Origin: Gammaproteobacteria bacterium
GTDB lineage: Bacteria; Pseudomonadota; Gammaproteobacteria; Pseudomonadales; Pseudomonadaceae
Assembly (NCBI GenBank): GCA_018827205.1
Contig: JAHJXZ010000177.1
Location: 1 to 37,635, forward strand
Length of the DNA: 37,635 bases
Direction of reading: 5' to 3'
In this document: piece after piece, positions 26,592 through 37,382 of the stretch
Layout: every line of letters starts with the position of its first letter
Position numbering within the stretch: the stretch's first letter is position 1
Position numbers and translations under genes: made by a program
The notes under the pieces: generated by a model
The model's input: the letters and a program-made list of their open reading frames with translations, nothing else
Told to the model about the DNA's origin: nothing
Databases searched by the model: none

Positions 26592-27371
26592 ATGATCATT
26601 ACCCGCCTTACACCAAGCCCTATTGCCGCCCTATTCAAGGCTCGCCGCGAAGAGCTGGAGCTCACCCAACAAGAAGTCGCCGACCGCGTGACAGAGCTTT
26701 TGCCGGCCCGTGAAAAGCTCACCCAGCAGTCATATGCAGCATTTGAGCGAGGCAAATCGCAGACCTCGAAACATGCCATGCAGATCGCCAACGTGCTGAA
26801 AATCCCGCTGGAGCGCTTAACGGCCATATCTATAGGTGAAGTTTCTTCGGCTCAGGAACCACGCGCCTCATACGGCCCAACTGAACCAAGCGCGATTTTC
26901 TTAGGCGCAATATCGACCTGGGACGATTCAACACCGCTAGATGACGATGAGATCGAGGTGCCATTGCTCAAGGAAGTAGAGCTGTCCGCCGGTAGCGGGC
27001 GCATATCCATTCAGGAACACAGCAAAGCTAAGCTGCGCTTTGGCAGCATCTCACTGCGCCGACAGGGCATAGAGCCGGCCAACGCAGTGTGTGTATCTGT
27101 CTATGGCAACAGCATGGAGCCTGTCCTGCCCCATGGCAGCACGGCAGGTGTTGATAGAGGCAGAACAACGATTAAAGATGGCGACATTTATGCCCTGTCG
27201 CACAATGGCCACCTACGGGTGAAGCTCCTTTACCGACTACCAACAGGTGGCCTTAGGCTCAGAAGCTTCAACCGCGACGAGCATCCAGACGAGGAATACA
27301 CCCCAGAACAGATTCGCGACCAAGACCTCACTATCATCGGCCGCGTATTCTGGTACTCGGTTTTGCGTTAA
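26592..27371 (+). CDS. CI-like repressor, HTH plus S24 self-cleavage domain
   Basis: The 259-residue product has an N-terminal HTH (about 11-76: LFKARREELELTQQEVADRV, QSYAAFERGKSQTS). After a linker, a LexA/CI-type S24 domain carries GNSMEP with nucleophile Ser174 and RVKLLYR with Lys211. VELSAGSGRI contains Ala133-Gly134, a possible autocleavage bond. It should hold the prophage silent and be inactivated by RecA after DNA damage. The ATG at 26592 has only a weak AGG upstream, as often seen for cI. It is divergent from cro and ends at an intrinsic terminator. Mechanism is from the family. Confidence 0.92.
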   Translation: MIITRLTPSPIAALFKARREELELTQQEVADRVTELLPAREKLTQQSYAAFERGKSQTSKHAMQIANVLKIPLERLTAISIGEVSSAQEPRASYGPTEPSAIFLGAISTWDDSTPLDDDEIEVPLLKEVELSAGSGRISIQEHSKAKLRFGSISLRRQGIEPANAVCVSVYGNSMEPVLPHGSTAGVDRGRTTIKDGDIYALSHNGHLRVKLLYRLPTGGLRLRSFNRDEHPDEEYTPEQIRDQDLTIIGRVFWYSVLR

Positions 27372-27698: not shown

Positions 27699-28006
27699 GT
27701 ACCAATCACCCCACCATCGCCATGCAGTGTTTTATGCAGGGATTGGCCAACGAGATCAAAGACTGCCGCACCGCATCGTATGACTTTGCAGTTGAGGCGA
27801 GCGTATATAACGCCATTGGCCAAACCGTAGCAGCACTCAACCTGGAAGCTATCACCGGTCAACAGTACGACCGCCTCACAGCGATGGCGATGAATGCCGC
27901 CTCCCTGCGCCGTGAAGAACTGCTGCTTAAGCACCCTGCTCACAGCCGCGCCGCCCTGCAGTCTTACCAACAGCGCCAGGCCGCAAAAAAGCAGGTGACC
28001 GCATGA
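27695..28006 (+). CDS. Helical early protein, unknown
   Basis: The 103-residue product starts MSTNHPTIAMQCFMQGLANE. It is mostly helical, with a central LNLEAITGQQYDRLTAMAMNAASLRR and a basic C-terminus (YQQRQAAKKQVTA). It overlaps both neighbours by 4 bases, so translation is coupled to the kinase gene downstream. No family recognised. Confidence 0.62.
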   Translation: MSTNHPTIAMQCFMQGLANEIKDCRTASYDFAVEASVYNAIGQTVAALNLEAITGQQYDRLTAMAMNAASLRREELLLKHPAHSRAALQSYQQRQAAKKQVTA

Positions 28007-28578
28007 GCCATCTTCTTATCGGCCTGCACGGTCTTGCACGCACCGGCAAAGACACCGCAGCCAGTTACCTGGCCGCGCACTACGCTCTGCTCAGCTACGC
28101 CTTTGCTGACCCACTCAAGGCCGCACTGGCTCAACTGTTCGGCCTCACCTCAGCTCACCTGGAAGGCGCGCTGAAAGAGCTGCCTTTGCCCGATATCGGC
28201 AAGTCCCCGCGCGAGCTTATGCAGCTGCTCGGCACGGAGTGGGCACGCAACCTGGTGCACCGCGACCTGTGGCTGCTGCTGGCAAAGCAGAACATTGGCG
28301 CCCAGCTCGATGCTGACCAAGCGCACTACAACGGCGTAATCATCCGCGATGTCAGGTTTGAGAACGAAGCGCAGTGGATACGCAGCCAAGGCGGCGTTGT
28401 TGTGCACATCCTACGGCCAGACGCTCAGCCAGTAGCTGCCCACATCAGCGAAACCCCGCTAATGCGCGGCAACAAAGACGCAATGGTGCACAACACCGGC
28501 AGCATCGACGATTTCCACGGCGAGCTCCGCAGCTTGATGATCTACCTGCAGCGCCGCCACGCGCTCAACGCAGCCTGA
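28003..28578 (+). CDS. Deoxynucleoside monophosphate kinase-like protein
   Basis: The 191-residue product starts MSHLLIGLHGLARTGKDTAA with a P-loop GLARTGKDT (10-18). LSYAFADPLKAALAQLFGL, GKSPRELMQLLGTEWARNLV and VIIRDVRFENEAQWIRSQGG follow, the pattern of phage dNMP kinases (T4 gp1 type). These phosphorylate dNMPs for DNA synthesis, sometimes including modified nucleotides. It starts in a 4-base overlap with the previous gene. Context with a cytosine methyltransferase and an HD phosphohydrolase-like protein points to nucleotide metabolism. Confidence 0.82.
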   Translation: MSHLLIGLHGLARTGKDTAASYLAAHYALLSYAFADPLKAALAQLFGLTSAHLEGALKELPLPDIGKSPRELMQLLGTEWARNLVHRDLWLLLAKQNIGAQLDADQAHYNGVIIRDVRFENEAQWIRSQGGVVVHILRPDAQPVAAHISETPLMRGNKDAMVHNTGSIDDFHGELRSLMIYLQRRHALNAA

Positions 28579-31294: not shown

Positions 31295-31509
31295 TGGAAA
31301 CCACAGTTGCTACACCCAGCGACCTGCTGCGCGCCCGGGCGGCGCACATGGACAACCTCCAGCGCCTGCGCCACGCCATGCCAACCCTTAGCGCGCCTCT
31401 GACCCAGCGCGCAGAAAACACCATGGCAAACCTCATGCAGCAGGTTTACGAAATCGACGAACAGCTGCGCATCAAAGGCAAAAAGCCGGATCAGTGGGGT
31501 GCCGCATGA
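31294..31509 (+). CDS. Small helical early protein, unknown
   Basis: The 71-residue product starts METTVATPSDLLRARAAHMD and is helical throughout, with LMQQVYEIDEQLRIKGKKPD near the end. It overlaps its neighbours on both sides, by 1 base upstream and as ATGA downstream, which supports it as a real gene. No family recognised. Confidence 0.6.
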   Translation: METTVATPSDLLRARAAHMDNLQRLRHAMPTLSAPLTQRAENTMANLMQQVYEIDEQLRIKGKKPDQWGAA

Positions 31510-32081
31510 CCTTCATCATCACCCGCAGCGGCCAGAAGTTCGACCTGGCCAACCCAACCGCCGCCATGGTGCACCCGGCCGATATCGCCCACAGCCTGAG
31601 CATGCAATGCCGCTTCAACGGCCACACCATCGACTTCTACAGCGTGGCCCAACACTGCTGCCTGGTGGCTGATCTGGTACCGGAAGAGCACCAACTGGCC
31701 GCCCTACTGCACGACGCAACCGAGGCATACGTGGGCGACATGGTGCGCCCACTCAAAGAGGGCATGCGTAACCACGCACACGCCATTGGCGAGGTTTGTA
31801 TCTACGCGCTCACTGAAGAGCGCGTATGGCAAGCCATCTGCCAGCGCTTCGACCTCAACCACGTCCTGCCAGCCAGCGTTAAACACGCCGATCTAGTTGC
31901 CCTGGCCACCGAGAAGCGCGACCTAATGCCAGCGCACCCAGAGCCATGGGCCTGCCTGGACGGCATCACACCGGCTCCAGATCAGATCCATTCATGGGCA
32001 CCCGCCACAGCAGCCATCCACTACCAGGCGCGCCTGCTGCAACTGCTGGCCACCACACACCGCGCGAGGGCATCGGCATGA
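31506..32081 (+). CDS. HD-domain phosphohydrolase, YfdR-like (5'-deoxynucleotidase type)
   Basis: The 191-residue product starts MTFIITRSGQKFDLANPTAA and matches YfdR: HPADIAHSLSMQCRFNGHT, IDFYSVAQHCCLVADLVP, and AALLHDATEAYVGDMVRPLK, which holds the HD pair. Later come SVKHADLVALATEKRDLMPA. HD residues bind a divalent metal; family members remove phosphate from dNMPs. That would favour recycling or removal of unwanted nucleotides during phage DNA synthesis, next to a dNMP kinase gene. The ATG overlaps the previous stop; a longer frame start at 31494 is not needed. Confidence 0.88.
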   Translation: MTFIITRSGQKFDLANPTAAMVHPADIAHSLSMQCRFNGHTIDFYSVAQHCCLVADLVPEEHQLAALLHDATEAYVGDMVRPLKEGMRNHAHAIGEVCIYALTEERVWQAICQRFDLNHVLPASVKHADLVALATEKRDLMPAHPEPWACLDGITPAPDQIHSWAPATAAIHYQARLLQLLATTHRARASA

Positions 32082-32689
32082 CTACCGCACACGACCCAAT
32101 GAAGGAAGTCATCACCCTGCACGGGCTGGGCTTTATACAGGTCCAGTTGCAGGCCAACCAGCGCCTGCACGTGTGGCACCCGGCATTGCCACGCCGCCGC
32201 TGCTTCGAACACTCGGCGATTCACAACCACCGCTTCAATTTCACTTCCCGCGTGCTCATCGGCCAGCAGATCAACATCAAATTCAAGGCAATTGATGCTG
32301 ATGAAGACACCGCCACCCACCTTCTATACCTGCATGAAGGCCCCAGAACTGCAAATGGCGGCAGACCCTGGACACCAAACGCTCCAGTCGCAATGTTTGA
32401 GCACAACCGCAACGTGATCGATGCCGGCACGGAATACGACATGTGGGCCTATGACTTCCACCGTACTGAGCCAGGCGGCGATGGGCGCGTGGCCACGCTC
32501 ATGACCAAAACAGGGGAAGGCAAGCACGGCGCAATGTCGAGCTGCCGCATTGGTATAGAACCCGATACAGACTTCGACCGCTTCCAACTTCCACCAGCAG
32601 AGCTGTGGGGCTTCGTAGTGGACGTGCTCGGCGGCAAACCGCTGTCCCTGCTAGCAGCGGCAGCAGCAAACGGTGGGGAGCACTACTGA
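32078..32689 (+). CDS. Cupin-like unknown protein
   Basis: The 203-residue product starts MTTAHDPMKEVITLHGLGFI. It has strands separated by His-rich turns: LHVWHPALPRRRCFEHSAIH, NHRFNFTSRVLIGQQINI, and later TEYDMWAYDFHRTEPGGDG. HxxIHNHRFxF followed by G and a distant YDFHRT is the kind of pattern seen in metal-binding cupins. The fold and any enzymatic role are guesses. It overlaps the YfdR-like gene by 4 bases and its neighbour by 1. Confidence 0.6.
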   Translation: MTTAHDPMKEVITLHGLGFIQVQLQANQRLHVWHPALPRRRCFEHSAIHNHRFNFTSRVLIGQQINIKFKAIDADEDTATHLLYLHEGPRTANGGRPWTPNAPVAMFEHNRNVIDAGTEYDMWAYDFHRTEPGGDGRVATLMTKTGEGKHGAMSSCRIGIEPDTDFDRFQLPPAELWGFVVDVLGGKPLSLLAAAAANGGEHY

Positions 32690-33393
32690 TGAGCATTGAA
32701 GTGAAAGTCTCTCTGGAGTGGCTCAAGCAAGTACACCGCGATCTGGACGCCTGCCAAAAAGTTATCTGGCTGGCAGGCTGCCGCCCGCAGGTGCCCGGCG
32801 GCTTTGATCCTGCCTATGTCACCGGCGCCCAAGCGCGCCTGCAAGAAATCGATGCACTTATCGCTACCGGTCAGCAGCTGGAATCAACGCAGGCCGCTCA
32901 GAACGACCACGACCTTTCCCACTGGGCGTCCAGCCTGAAGTGCACCTGGCCAGTTGAGCCTTTAGACCCTGAAGGCGCCTGGATGATTGGCTCGATAGAC
33001 GATCACGGCGATGGCGACAAAACGCACTACCCCGTGATCACGGTCGAGGCCGATCAGTACGACGCACCTGGTGACTCCGAGAAAATTGCCAAGGCTCTGA
33101 GCGCGCTGTGGCAGCGGGCTTTTTCTGATGCATCACCAGAAGCTAAACCGGCTCTACCCCCGATGAACGAAGCCCTGCTCTACATCTTGGGCCGCCCAAA
33201 TTTCATGTGCTACGGCGTAGCACAATCACTGCGCAAACTCGGCCACTCAATCCCTAATAAAACCGAGGATGAGCAGGCACACGTAATCCACTGGATGCTA
33301 AACAGCTACCTGCTGCACGGCGAAGGTTGGCTTGGTGCCTGCAACACTGAAATTGCGTCGCTTAACCCCACCGCGGGGCCGACCAATGAATAA
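32689..33393 (+). CDS. Unknown early protein, two-part
   Basis: The 234-residue product starts MSIEVKVSLEWLKQVHRDLD. The N-terminal part (about 1-70) is a helical hairpin with LQEIDALIATGQQLEST. The middle has WPVEPLDPEGAWMIGSIDDH and a DGDKTHYPVITVEADQYDAP strand block. The C-terminal part (about 155-225) is a separate helical unit, LPPMNEALLYILGRPNFMCY with GHSIPNKTEDEQAHVIHWML. The last looks like a small phage domain that often stands alone, so this may be a fusion. It overlaps the methyltransferase gene by 8 bases. Function unknown. Confidence 0.6.
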   Translation: MSIEVKVSLEWLKQVHRDLDACQKVIWLAGCRPQVPGGFDPAYVTGAQARLQEIDALIATGQQLESTQAAQNDHDLSHWASSLKCTWPVEPLDPEGAWMIGSIDDHGDGDKTHYPVITVEADQYDAPGDSEKIAKALSALWQRAFSDASPEAKPALPPMNEALLYILGRPNFMCYGVAQSLRKLGHSIPNKTEDEQAHVIHWMLNSYLLHGEGWLGACNTEIASLNPTAGPTNE

Positions 33394-35173
33394 CCTCTAC
33401 CGTATCCACCCCCAGCCCAGCTTCAACTTTGGTGGCCTGGTGATCGATAACTTCGCCGGCGGCGGCGGCGCTTCCACCGGCATAGAAATGGCCATTGGCC
33501 GGCCGGTTGATATCGCCATCAACCACGACCCCGAAGCCATCGCCATGCACGAAATCAACCACCCGCACACCAAGCACTACTGCGAATCGGTGTGGGAGGT
33601 GGACCCGCGCGAAATCACTGGCGGCCGCCCGGTCGACCTGTGCTGGTTCAGCCCGGACTGCAAGCACTTCTCCAAGGCCAAGGGCGGCAAGCCGGTGAAG
33701 AAGGAGATACGCGGCCTGGCCTGGGTGGCCATCCGCTACGCTGCCACCGTTCGCCCGCGCGTCATCATGCTGGAGAACGTCGAGGAGTTTGTGACCTGGG
33801 GCCCCATCACCGTCGACGGCCGCCCATGCCCGAAGAACAAAGGCCGCACCTTCAACAGCTTCGTCAATGCCCTGCGCCGCCACGGCTACCAGGTGGAATG
33901 GAAAGAGCTGCGCGCCAACGTCTACGGCACCGCCACCATCCGCAAGCGTCTGTTTCTGATTGCACGCTGTGACGGCCTGCCGATTGTTTGGCCCGAGGCT
34001 ACCCACGCCCCGCACCAAAGCCCGGCAGTTAAGGCCAAGCAAGCCAAGCCGCAACGCCTGGCGGCGGACATAATCGACTGGTCACTGCCGTGCCCTTCGA
34101 TCTTCACCCGCAAAAAGCCACTGGCCGAAGCAACCCTGCGCCGGATTGCGCGCGGCATTCAGCGTTATGTGATCGACGCCGCCGAGCCCTTCATCGTCAA
34201 GGTCAACCATGGCTACGACTACTTCCGTGGGCAAAGCCTTGGCGAGCCCCTTCAAACCATCACCAGCAAACTCGGCAGCGCGCTGGTGGTACCCAAGCTG
34301 GCCCCCTTCATCACAGAGCACGCCAACGGCAGTACCCAGCGCAACATGCCGGCCGACGAACCACTGCGCACTATCTGTGCCCAGGTAAAGGGCGGCCACT
34401 TTGCGGTTGTAGCGCCAACCCTGGTGCAGGTTGGCTATGGAGAACGTAAGGGCCAGGCACCACGGGCACCAGGCCTGGACAAGCCACTGGGCACTATCGT
34501 CGCCGGCGGCGGCAAACATGCTCTGGTGGCGGCCTTCCTGGCCAAGCATTACGGCGGCAACTACACCGGCCCGGGCAGCGATCTGCGCGACCCGCTGTCC
34601 ACCGTCACCACGGTGGACCATAACGCTCTGGTGCTCGCCCACATCCAGCGCGACTACGGCAACAGCATCGGCCACCCCGCCACTGAACCACTCGGCACCA
34701 TTACAGCTGGCGGCGGGGGCAAAGCAGCACTGGTCGCCAGCAGCCTGATCAAGCTGCGCGGCACCTGCCGTGATGGCCAGCCAGTAACCGAACCGGCTGC
34801 CACCATCAGCGCCCAAGGCAACCACCTCGGCGAGGTACGCGCCTTCCTGCTCAAGTATTACGACACAGGCGTAGGCCAAAGCCTGGCCGAACCACTGCAC
34901 ACCATCACCACCAAAGACCGCATCGGCCTGGTGATGGTCAAAGGTGAGCCCTACCAGATCGTCGATATCGGCATGCGCATGCTCGAACCGCACGAACTCT
35001 ACGCGGCCCAGGGCTTCCCGGCCGACTACATCCACGACCGCACCGCCACCGGCAAACGCCTGAGCAAAGCCGCCCAAGTGCGCATGTGCGGCAACAGCGT
35101 CTGCCCACCCGTAGCAGCCGCACTGGTGCGCGCCAACCTGGTGGACCAGCAGAGCGGGGAGGAAGCGGCATGA
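33386..35173 (+). CDS. C5-cytosine DNA methyltransferase with internal repeats
   Basis: The 595-residue product methylates cytosine in DNA. Motif I is DNFAGGGGASTG (21-32), motif IV is FSPDCKHFSKAKGGKP with nucleophile Cys92 (PDC instead of the usual PC), motif VI is MLENVEEF (128-135) and motif VIII IRKRLFLIA (185-193). The C-terminus has GNSVCPPVAAAL (569-580) as motif X. Between 280 and 520, where the target-recognition domain should be, the motif xEPLxTIxxxxxxALV is repeated about seven times (near 287, 325, 366, 402, 434, 469, 502). Probably protects phage DNA from host restriction. No cognate nuclease gene is seen. The ATG overlaps the previous gene by 8 bases. Confidence 0.9.
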   Translation: MNNLYRIHPQPSFNFGGLVIDNFAGGGGASTGIEMAIGRPVDIAINHDPEAIAMHEINHPHTKHYCESVWEVDPREITGGRPVDLCWFSPDCKHFSKAKGGKPVKKEIRGLAWVAIRYAATVRPRVIMLENVEEFVTWGPITVDGRPCPKNKGRTFNSFVNALRRHGYQVEWKELRANVYGTATIRKRLFLIARCDGLPIVWPEATHAPHQSPAVKAKQAKPQRLAADIIDWSLPCPSIFTRKKPLAEATLRRIARGIQRYVIDAAEPFIVKVNHGYDYFRGQSLGEPLQTITSKLGSALVVPKLAPFITEHANGSTQRNMPADEPLRTICAQVKGGHFAVVAPTLVQVGYGERKGQAPRAPGLDKPLGTIVAGGGKHALVAAFLAKHYGGNYTGPGSDLRDPLSTVTTVDHNALVLAHIQRDYGNSIGHPATEPLGTITAGGGGKAALVASSLIKLRGTCRDGQPVTEPAATISAQGNHLGEVRAFLLKYYDTGVGQSLAEPLHTITTKDRIGLVMVKGEPYQIVDIGMRMLEPHELYAAQGFPADYIHDRTATGKRLSKAAQVRMCGNSVCPPVAAALVRANLVDQQSGEEAA

Positions 35174-35741: not shown

Positions 35742-37382
35742 TCACCCACCCCGGTCGGTGCGGGAAACCCACGCGCCAGACCGGCGATCCACTTCCAACA
35801 TCACCCGCTGACCGGAACGCGAAACAAGCAAGACGGCAATCGTCTTGCCGTCCGGATCCGGCACCAGGCCGCGCATGTACACCACTATCCGGCTGAAGGT
35901 ATCTAACACTAGCTGCCGCAGCTGTTCGCGCACCGGGCTGTAGATGTCACCCGCCTCAGCCGTCAGCTTCGCCCATTGCTCCGCCGCAGCAGGCGTTCTT
36001 CCTGTACCGTGCGCACCCTGCTCACGCCCAAGCTGTTCAATCTCGAGCTGCAGGGTCTTCAATTCGGCCTCTAGCTCTCGTGCCTTGCGCACAAATGCCA
36101 GTGGTGCAGCGCCCTGGTCGTCGGCCAACAGGGCTTCAGTCACCCGCGTCAATTGCCTCTCGACTTCACCATGCTTCCGCCGTGCTGCCTGCAATCGCTT
36201 CTGCAGCACCTGGCCATCGTCTACAGGCTCCATCAGGCGAGTGAGGTTCATCTGGTCAGAGCAATAGGACAGCACCGCCGTCTCAACCGGTACCGAGCTG
36301 CAGCTCGCCCCCGCGCATCCAAGCCCACTGGAATAGGAAACACAGTGCAGGCGCCGGTGACCATCAGCGAGGGTGCCATCTTTGCGCGCGCGACCAACCA
36401 GGTTCTGTGCGACCAGAGCCGTGCCGCAGTAGCCACAGTAGGTCATGCCGACACCCGTAACGATGCCGACGATATCGCTTGCACCGCGCCGGCCGTGGCG
36501 CACAGCGTTGGAGGACTCCAGCTCACTGAACTCCTCGTCGCTCATCAGCCGGGGGTAATAGTCCTCAAGAACATAGTCTTCGCCATCAACACTTATGCGC
36601 TTGGCCCCGCGCAATGCCGGCAGCTTCACCAGTCGATACAGCTGCTGGCCTGCCATCGGCCGGCCAGATAGGGACATACCGCTTTCAGCCATTTTGCGAG
36701 CAGCCCGGGTAGCGCCATCGCCCTGCCGGTAAAGTTCAATTGCATAGCGCACTGCCGCGACACGCTCAGGGATCAACTGCCAGGCACTGCCATCCCAGCG
36801 TAACCAGCTCGGGTCATTGCCATTACGGATAAGCCCTCGGTAGGTACCGGCTACCCAGCCATCACACAGTCGCCGGATCGAGGCCTTGACGCGCTTGCTC
36901 TTTGTGTCCGATTCCTCATGCGCGCGGATCATCACCAGCAGCGAGTACACCAAATCCATAGGCTGGCTCTTGAGCCCCGCCCGGTTGTACTCCCGGCCGT
37001 CGCTGGCCGTCACCACGGTGATGCCGGCATTGATGATCTGCGCAAGCTGCGCCTGCGCCTGCAAAGGCTCCGCCCGACTGAGGCGGTCAAGCCCTTCAAC
37101 AATTAGCACCGAGCCCTCAGGAATTCGGCCCTCGTCGACAGCAAGCAGGAACGCACCAAGCGCGCCCTGTTTGATATGGCGCTGATGGTAGGCAGACAAC
37201 CCCTCGTCACGCAGCGACAGGGACTCATCAAGCACTAACCCCCGATCAGCCGCCCAGCGCTGCGCGTACAATAACTGACGGTCGGCGCTACTGCCGGTCG
37301 ATTGCCGTGGATCGGAAAACCGAAGATAGCTGTATACTCGCGCGCTAATTTTTGCTCTCCCGTGAATAGCCCATGACCACAT
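35742..37382 (-). CDS. Large serine recombinase (integrase)
   Basis: The frame of 546 codons encodes a phage integrase of the large serine type. The catalytic domain begins [20 protein letters not shown] with Ser23 as nucleophile in this numbering, and continues [11 protein letters not shown] and [12 protein letters not shown]. The recombinase domain is about 190-290 ([20 protein letters not shown]). A zinc ribbon has CGYCGTALV and [17 protein letters not shown] coiled coil is about 390-460. The only conventional in-frame start is the ATG at 37382, inside rimO. A likely native start would be near codons 11-15, where an ATT (37349-37347) follows GGGAG by 7 bases. It ends stop-to-stop with the early operon. 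Confidence 0.9.
37320..37382. other. Right attachment-site region (attR) between integrase and rimO
   Basis: The integrase coding sequence is recognisable up to about codon 15 (37340), and rimO starts at 37373, so the phage-host join lies in or next to this stretch. Serine integrases recombine at a core of only a few bases, so it cannot be located without the left end or an empty site. On the rimO strand, TATACT (37333-37338) lies about 35 bases before the rimO ATG and could be its -10 box; it is formed by integrase codons. Confidence 0.6.

Follow-up and report, generated by a model that had tools for sequence, protein, structure and literature searches.

A prophage cytosine methyltransferase family with exchangeable cassettes that probably act as target-recognition domains

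We describe a predicted C5-cytosine DNA methyltransferase (C5-MTase) encoded in a 37,635-nucleotide stretch of Gammaproteobacteria bacterium DNA (Pseudomonadaceae; assembly GCA_018827205.1, contig JAHJXZ010000177.1, positions 1 to 37,635), hereafter the window. The gene (33386..35173, forward strand) runs from an ATG at 33386 to a stop codon ending at 35173 and encodes 595 amino acids (aa), among which an array of seven units of about 36 aa sits between catalytic motifs VIII and IX. We consider it likely that this prophage enzyme is multispecific and that its units are exchangeable target-recognition cassettes.

A sequence-only reading of this gene had noted about seven repeats in the region where a target-recognition domain (TRD) would lie. 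All seven are there; their [x]P[x][x]T[IV] motifs begin at residues 286, 324, 365, 401, 433, 468 and 501, one residue from the positions first given and with the same spacing of 32-41 residues. A 41-column hidden Markov model (HMM) of the unit, with the window protein among the family members used to build it, scores seven domains in succession at 42-57.5 bits in that protein; the best domain in 1000 shuffles of residues 241-530 reaches 7.3 bits. Similarly, the motif [DEK]PxxT[IV] occurs seven times in that region, against a mean of 0.03 and a maximum of 2 in 10,000 shuffles. Thus, the units are not a product of chance. They are only 21-47% identical to one another, and when units across the family are typed by a 50% identity cut-off, on which the type assignment depends, the array reads E-D-F-B-G-C-A.

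On the forward strand, the array opens with unit 1 (type E, residues 268-303, 34187..34294; 42.0 bits) and unit 2 (type D, residues 306-345, 34301..34420; 48.0 bits). The three best matches to unit 2 in proteins with cores less than 70% identical are 91-94% identical to it, with cores at 54-57%. Unit 3 (type F, residues 340-384, 34403..34537; 43.8 bits), whose HMM range overlaps its neighbours, is replaced in a close allele, L002. Units 4 (type B, residues 379-419, 34520..34642; 57.5 bits), 5 (type G, residues 414-452, 34625..34741; 46.9 bits) and 6 (type C, residues 448-487, 34727..34846; 42.1 bits) follow, and unit 7 (type A, residues 482-518, 34829..34939; 51.1 bits) closes the array, as type A always does.

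Across 1147 aligned units, P24 is present in 1133 and T27 in 1138, [IV]28 and V38 are strongly conserved, and the variable columns lie mostly at 10-22 and 31-35, in two stretches between fixed motifs (PxxT[IV] ... V). TRDs are built on a fixed strand with a T-[LIV] dipeptide and a variable loop on each side. Judged from sequence, the units are laid out as a TRD would be.

Profile matches, motifs and fold agree in placing the window protein among the C5-MTases, and it presumably forms 5-methylcytosine. It matches PF00145 (E 5.8e-30; 105.3 bits, above the cut-off of 22), as well as PHROG 116 (E 5e-104) and PHROG 23072 (E 3.3e-103), whose annotation ('DNA methyltransferase', kind 'other') is silent on repeats or specificity. 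Solved C5-MTases match the core of an AlphaFold2 (AF2) model of the window protein, which has the Rossmann-type methyltransferase fold. Motifs I, IV (catalytic Cys), VI (ENV), VIII, IX and X occur in C5-MTase order and form invariant columns in a 66-row alignment, where S89, P90, D91 and C92 of motif IV (residues 89-92, SPDC, catalytic Cys92; 33650..33661, forward strand) are unchanged in every row. The C-terminal motifs IX and X (residues 531-583; 34976..35134, forward strand) retain invariant R531, L533, P535, E537, G569 and N570. The earlier remark that the nucleophile motif reads PDC rather than PC extends well beyond this gene, as SPDC occupies the site in all 185 family proteins that passed our filter, the window protein counted; both aligned relatives from the PDB, 3g7u and 8yf3, have PPC.

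The family is widespread in phage DNA. With tblastn, 491 of 50,697 phage records matched at E 1e-5 and 257 of these covered at least 80% of the query; the remainder includes ordinary C5-MTases. Scans of bacterial and viral contigs gave at least hundreds of matches. We extracted 228 proteins, the window protein counted, and based the main counts on the 185 that passed a filter for motifs I and X. Among these, three have 3 units, 15 have 4, 34 have 5, 63 have 6, 43 have 7, 17 have 8, seven have 9 and three have 10, and each additional unit lengthens the protein by 36.5 aa (r 0.93). Unit number therefore differs between relatives, from 3 to 10, which answers a question that the sequence-only reading had posed of the homologs. 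Of the 43 proteins that were removed, 42 have 3-9 units and the other is a fragment; motif X or the stretch preceding it is visible in most of the rejected tails printed, and the filter was thus too strict. In the actinophages Gordonia Frokostdame and Mycobacterium Purky, relatives show five unit matches each, at 6-38 bits.

Within the same genus as the window, matches at E 1e-60 occur in 19 of 199 genomes, the window's own genome counted. Proteins were extracted by pattern from seven of these 19 loci (L262-L280), and L262 and L280 are one gene. A second and more distant group, L263-L279, makes up 17 of 20 matches, with 45-53% identity over the matched part; its open frames span 585-767 aa, and the five readable arrays have 5-6 units.

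Units fall into discrete types that almost never recur within a protein. There are 87 unit clusters at 50% identity, and each of the 175 proteins with a type A unit has it in the final position. In 106 representatives with cores less than 85% identical (670 units, 82 types), only one unit is redundant, that is, of a type already present in the same protein. With the last unit held fixed, 74 +/- 6 redundant units are expected when units are shuffled freely, 69 +/- 6 when shuffled within the same rank from the start and 53 +/- 5 within the same rank from the end, with 33 the lowest value in any single shuffle. Order is also not fixed, as 31 of 224 type pairs are found both ways round, most clearly B before G (16 cases) and G before B (13 cases). 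Along the core tree, the presence of each of types B-K changes 11-26 times, with 26 changes for type F against a shuffled mean of 34.8, so that unit turnover is fast yet not random. In 28 pairs, unit DNA is at least 88% identical and exceeds the identity of the core DNA by at least 12 points, an example being the type D unit that is the fourth of eight in L116 and the second of six in L020. We considered recent unit transfer between distant genes as the source of these pairs and did not retain it; they are suggestive only, and strong conservation of a type could also account for them.

Closely related enzymes exchange, gain and lose whole units. Leaving aside pairs of the same architecture, 277 pairs with cores at least 88% identical differ in architecture, a count that may include cluster-edge effects, and we checked five pairs by eye in alignment. 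Between the window allele and L002, which share 99.4% core identity, unit 3 is the main difference. Outside this unit (552 codons), 7 codon changes alter the amino acid and 93 are silent; inside it (41 codons), 21 alter the amino acid and 13 are silent. At the DNA level, 29 and 27 of 60 positions are identical across unit 3, compared with 48-60 of every 60 elsewhere, and the unit-3 type of L002 has one other carrier in the protein set, L007. L051 and L058 also differ mainly in one unit, and L056 and L077 mainly in unit 1. Between L082 and L083, 36 residues have been cleanly gained or lost, alongside scattered substitutions; between L215 and L223, three units have. With these swaps and clean indels, the units prove to be different from each other and separable as cassettes. 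We regard the unit anatomy, number variation, discrete types, non-redundancy, order changes, swaps, clean indels, predominance of silent change beyond the swapped unit and prophage setting as established.

These observations suggest how the enzyme may work. One catalytic core, with motifs I-VIII before the array and IX-X after it, would serve seven different cassettes of about 36 aa. The PxxT[IV] strand of each cassette, which we take to be the counterpart of the conserved T-L/I/V of C5-MTase TRDs, would carry two variable loops, and each cassette may read a different short site, giving up to seven targets. A single polypeptide could then mask the phage genome from several restriction enzymes. 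Arrays would evolve by recombination at conserved unit edges, with units swapped, added and lost and redundancy avoided. Enzymatic activity, one target per unit and protection from restriction are in this sense predictions from sequence.

Several results weigh against this interpretation. The window protein scores 84.8 against the NCBIfam dcm model TIGR00675, under its cut-off of 100.65. Asp replaces the usual Pro before the catalytic Cys throughout the family, at what is among the most conserved positions of C5-MTases. Part of the non-redundancy could be inherited, if arrays of distinct units in an ancestor were thinned by deletions; the order changes and swaps show that more than this has happened. 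AF2 gave a predicted local distance difference test score (pLDDT) below 50 over nearly all units, both for the window protein (66-row alignment A1) and for the four-unit protein L048 (28-row alignment A3), which may be due simply to alignments that were shallow or out of register. The resemblance of the units to Bacillus TRDs is suggestive and not significant. When the unit HMM was run against 257 open reading frames (ORFs), the last TRDs of the SPbeta-type proteins L236 and L241 ranked first and second with E values of only 0.36 and 3.8, phi3T_150 came fifth at 0.2 bits and L239 fell outside the best 12; hhalign of the units against phi3T_150, a single template, gave a non-significant probability of 0.9% (E 0.062). 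Searching the PDB by phmmer with unit 7 and motifs IX-X returned no match up to E 10, and the best stretches listed from a profile search with A1 fall in the core, none in the units. Finally, we found no methylation or restriction-protection data for any family member. Because of this, and because structure prediction failed over the repeats, multispecificity is something we infer.

Palindrome frequencies in flanking phage DNA of 116 viral loci including the window (683 kb, 960 tests) offered a further test of targets, and it too did not favour the interpretation. The top leads were type L with GAGCTC and type F with CCGG, with type G and GCNGC lower down, and the largest z was 4.44, compared with 3.76 under label permutation. 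In the cases listed, a phylogeny-controlled sign test found no supported association between type and palindrome, with 3-9 usable pairs each and low power: the median p was 1 for F-CCGG, F-CGCG, F-GTCGAC, C-GGCC, D-GGCC and A-CCGG, and 0.69 for G-GCNGC. As the leads were not upheld in these cases, we dropped the assignment of unit targets from palindrome abundance.

Other explanations of the array must be weighed against the same data. Only the last unit might be a working TRD, with the others serving as spacers or as accessory DNA-binding repeats. In ordinary C5-MTases the one TRD ends beside motif IX, and type A adjoins that motif, is final in every one of its carriers and, by eye, resembles the last TRD of SPbeta-type enzymes. 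However, the upstream units are no less conserved within their types (unit 2 reaches 94% identity between proteins whose cores share 54-57%), and they are non-redundant and swapped whole with mostly silent change elsewhere, none of which spacers need; we therefore judge this explanation unlikely. Much the same holds, at a distinctly lower probability, for the idea that the units jointly read one long composite site at a few bases each, as in transcription activator-like effectors. Such a reader could well be built from tandem modules that share a scaffold and vary in their loops, and a swap would alter one part of the site. Yet its modules would repeat freely, against the one redundant unit seen where 53-74 were expected, and a composite site would not survive the clean removal of three neighbouring units that is seen in a close enzyme.

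The sequence-only reading had proposed a multi-target enzyme, a low-specificity enzyme that broadly shields phage DNA, or a solenoid that tracks along DNA. The multi-target proposal is favoured indirectly, by the TRD-like size, position and layout of the units, their variation in number (3-10), their many types that hardly ever recur within a protein, and the swaps and deletions of single units or small groups between close enzymes. The other two, in which a low-specificity or processive enzyme uses a solenoid to bind DNA or move along it with no reading of the sequence, are disfavoured, and we give them a very small chance. Prophages do carry relatively non-specific methyltransferases, with N6-methyladenine examples in PMC3526280, and a long repeat array with no confident predicted fold against a solenoid would allow this view. 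It fits poorly because interchangeable structural repeats need not stay non-redundant; discrete types, near absence of duplicates, cassette swaps and order changes all speak against it, as does the confinement of variable columns mostly to two stretches between fixed motifs. Least probable of all, in our assessment, is a catalytically inactive protein with another DNA-binding role. In its favour, all 185 family proteins checked lack the Pro that normally precedes the catalytic Cys (PDC in place of PC), but Cys92, ENV, RxR and the motif IX and X residues are invariant in 66 aligned members, and change outside the swapped unit is mostly silent.

Judged from its gene content, the window is a prophage region. 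A CI-like repressor (26592..27371, forward strand; PHROG 4 transcriptional repressor, E 7.5e-43), a deoxynucleoside monophosphate (dNMP) kinase (28003-28578, forward strand; PHROG 139, E 2.2e-51) and a dNMP phosphatase (31509-32081, forward strand; PHROG 318, E 7e-69) precede the methyltransferase, and dNMP kinase and phosphatase pairs can accompany nucleotide-pool or base-modification schemes. The last 8 bases of the upstream ORF (32605-33393) are shared with the start of the methyltransferase gene at 33386, which suggests translational coupling. A serine-recombinase-type integrase (35742..37382, reverse strand; PHROG 95, E 3.1e-57; PHROG 125 DNA invertase, E 4.8e-7) adjoins the methyltransferase at the prophage end. 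Ten window ORFs were compared with PHROGs. No nuclease family was hit, but three ORFs were left without any match and another three fell into families of unknown function, so that a partner may still exist.

If the multispecific interpretation is right, a phage lineage could switch the restriction enzymes that it resists by swapping about 110 bp. We put it at about an even chance that these genes amount to a phage-wide modular anti-restriction code, with around 80 interchangeable cassette types (at 50% identity), up to 10 per methyltransferase, exchanged under selection against redundancy on an unusual PDC core. The multispecific principle is already known; what would make it a testable recognition code is how large and non-redundant the cassette library is, together with the natural allele pairs that differ mainly in one cassette. 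Natural pairs differ mainly in one cassette, and therefore the target of each cassette type becomes a matter of comparing alleles. Annotations that read 'DNA methyltransferase' would then become readable anti-restriction repertoires. We know of no structure that shows several TRDs taking turns at one active site. The sequence-only reading knew of no study explaining the repeats, and we likewise found none in the literature searched, where coverage of subscription journals was limited.

M.HhaI and M.HaeIII, whose structures are solved and whose chains have about 325 aa compared with 595 aa and seven units here, have one TRD and PC, not PDC, at the nucleophile. To our knowledge, most multi-TRD methyltransferases described so far come from a small number of Bacillus phages, with TRDs of about 40 aa each. 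Like the SPbeta, phi3T, SPR, rho11 and H2 enzymes, the window enzyme is phage-borne and has one core with tandem TRD-like units before motif IX. For Bacillus temperate phages, PMC12707154 and PMC8936443 describe multiple TRDs in one polypeptide that protect against many restriction-modification systems. Other multi-target C5-MTases, likened to the window enzyme by literature description alone, are M.BceSV, multi-specific and prophage-encoded according to PMC3526280, and M.(phi)BssHII, named in a title cited by PMC8936443; M.BssHII is named in a title cited by PMC7653180. TRD cores of the SPbeta and phi3T type, such as SPTLTT or EPAFTVNT, are comparable to the unit PxxT[IV], and the last SPbeta-type TRD aligns over the whole unit. 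SPbeta-type relatives on viral contigs (L236-L260) have TRD stretches that are irregular by eye, and in L260 the match runs for 540 codons with no stop. In contrast to SPbeta and phi3T, the window family has regular units of about 36 aa, 3-10 per enzyme, in dozens of types that are frequently swapped, and its motif IV is SPDC, compared with SPCQ in nine of nine SPbeta-type rows (alignment A2) and FPC in phi3T_150. Because the unit similarity is not significant and motif IV differs, we keep the family apart from that lineage; it probably works like the SPbeta and phi3T enzymes but appears to form a lineage of its own.
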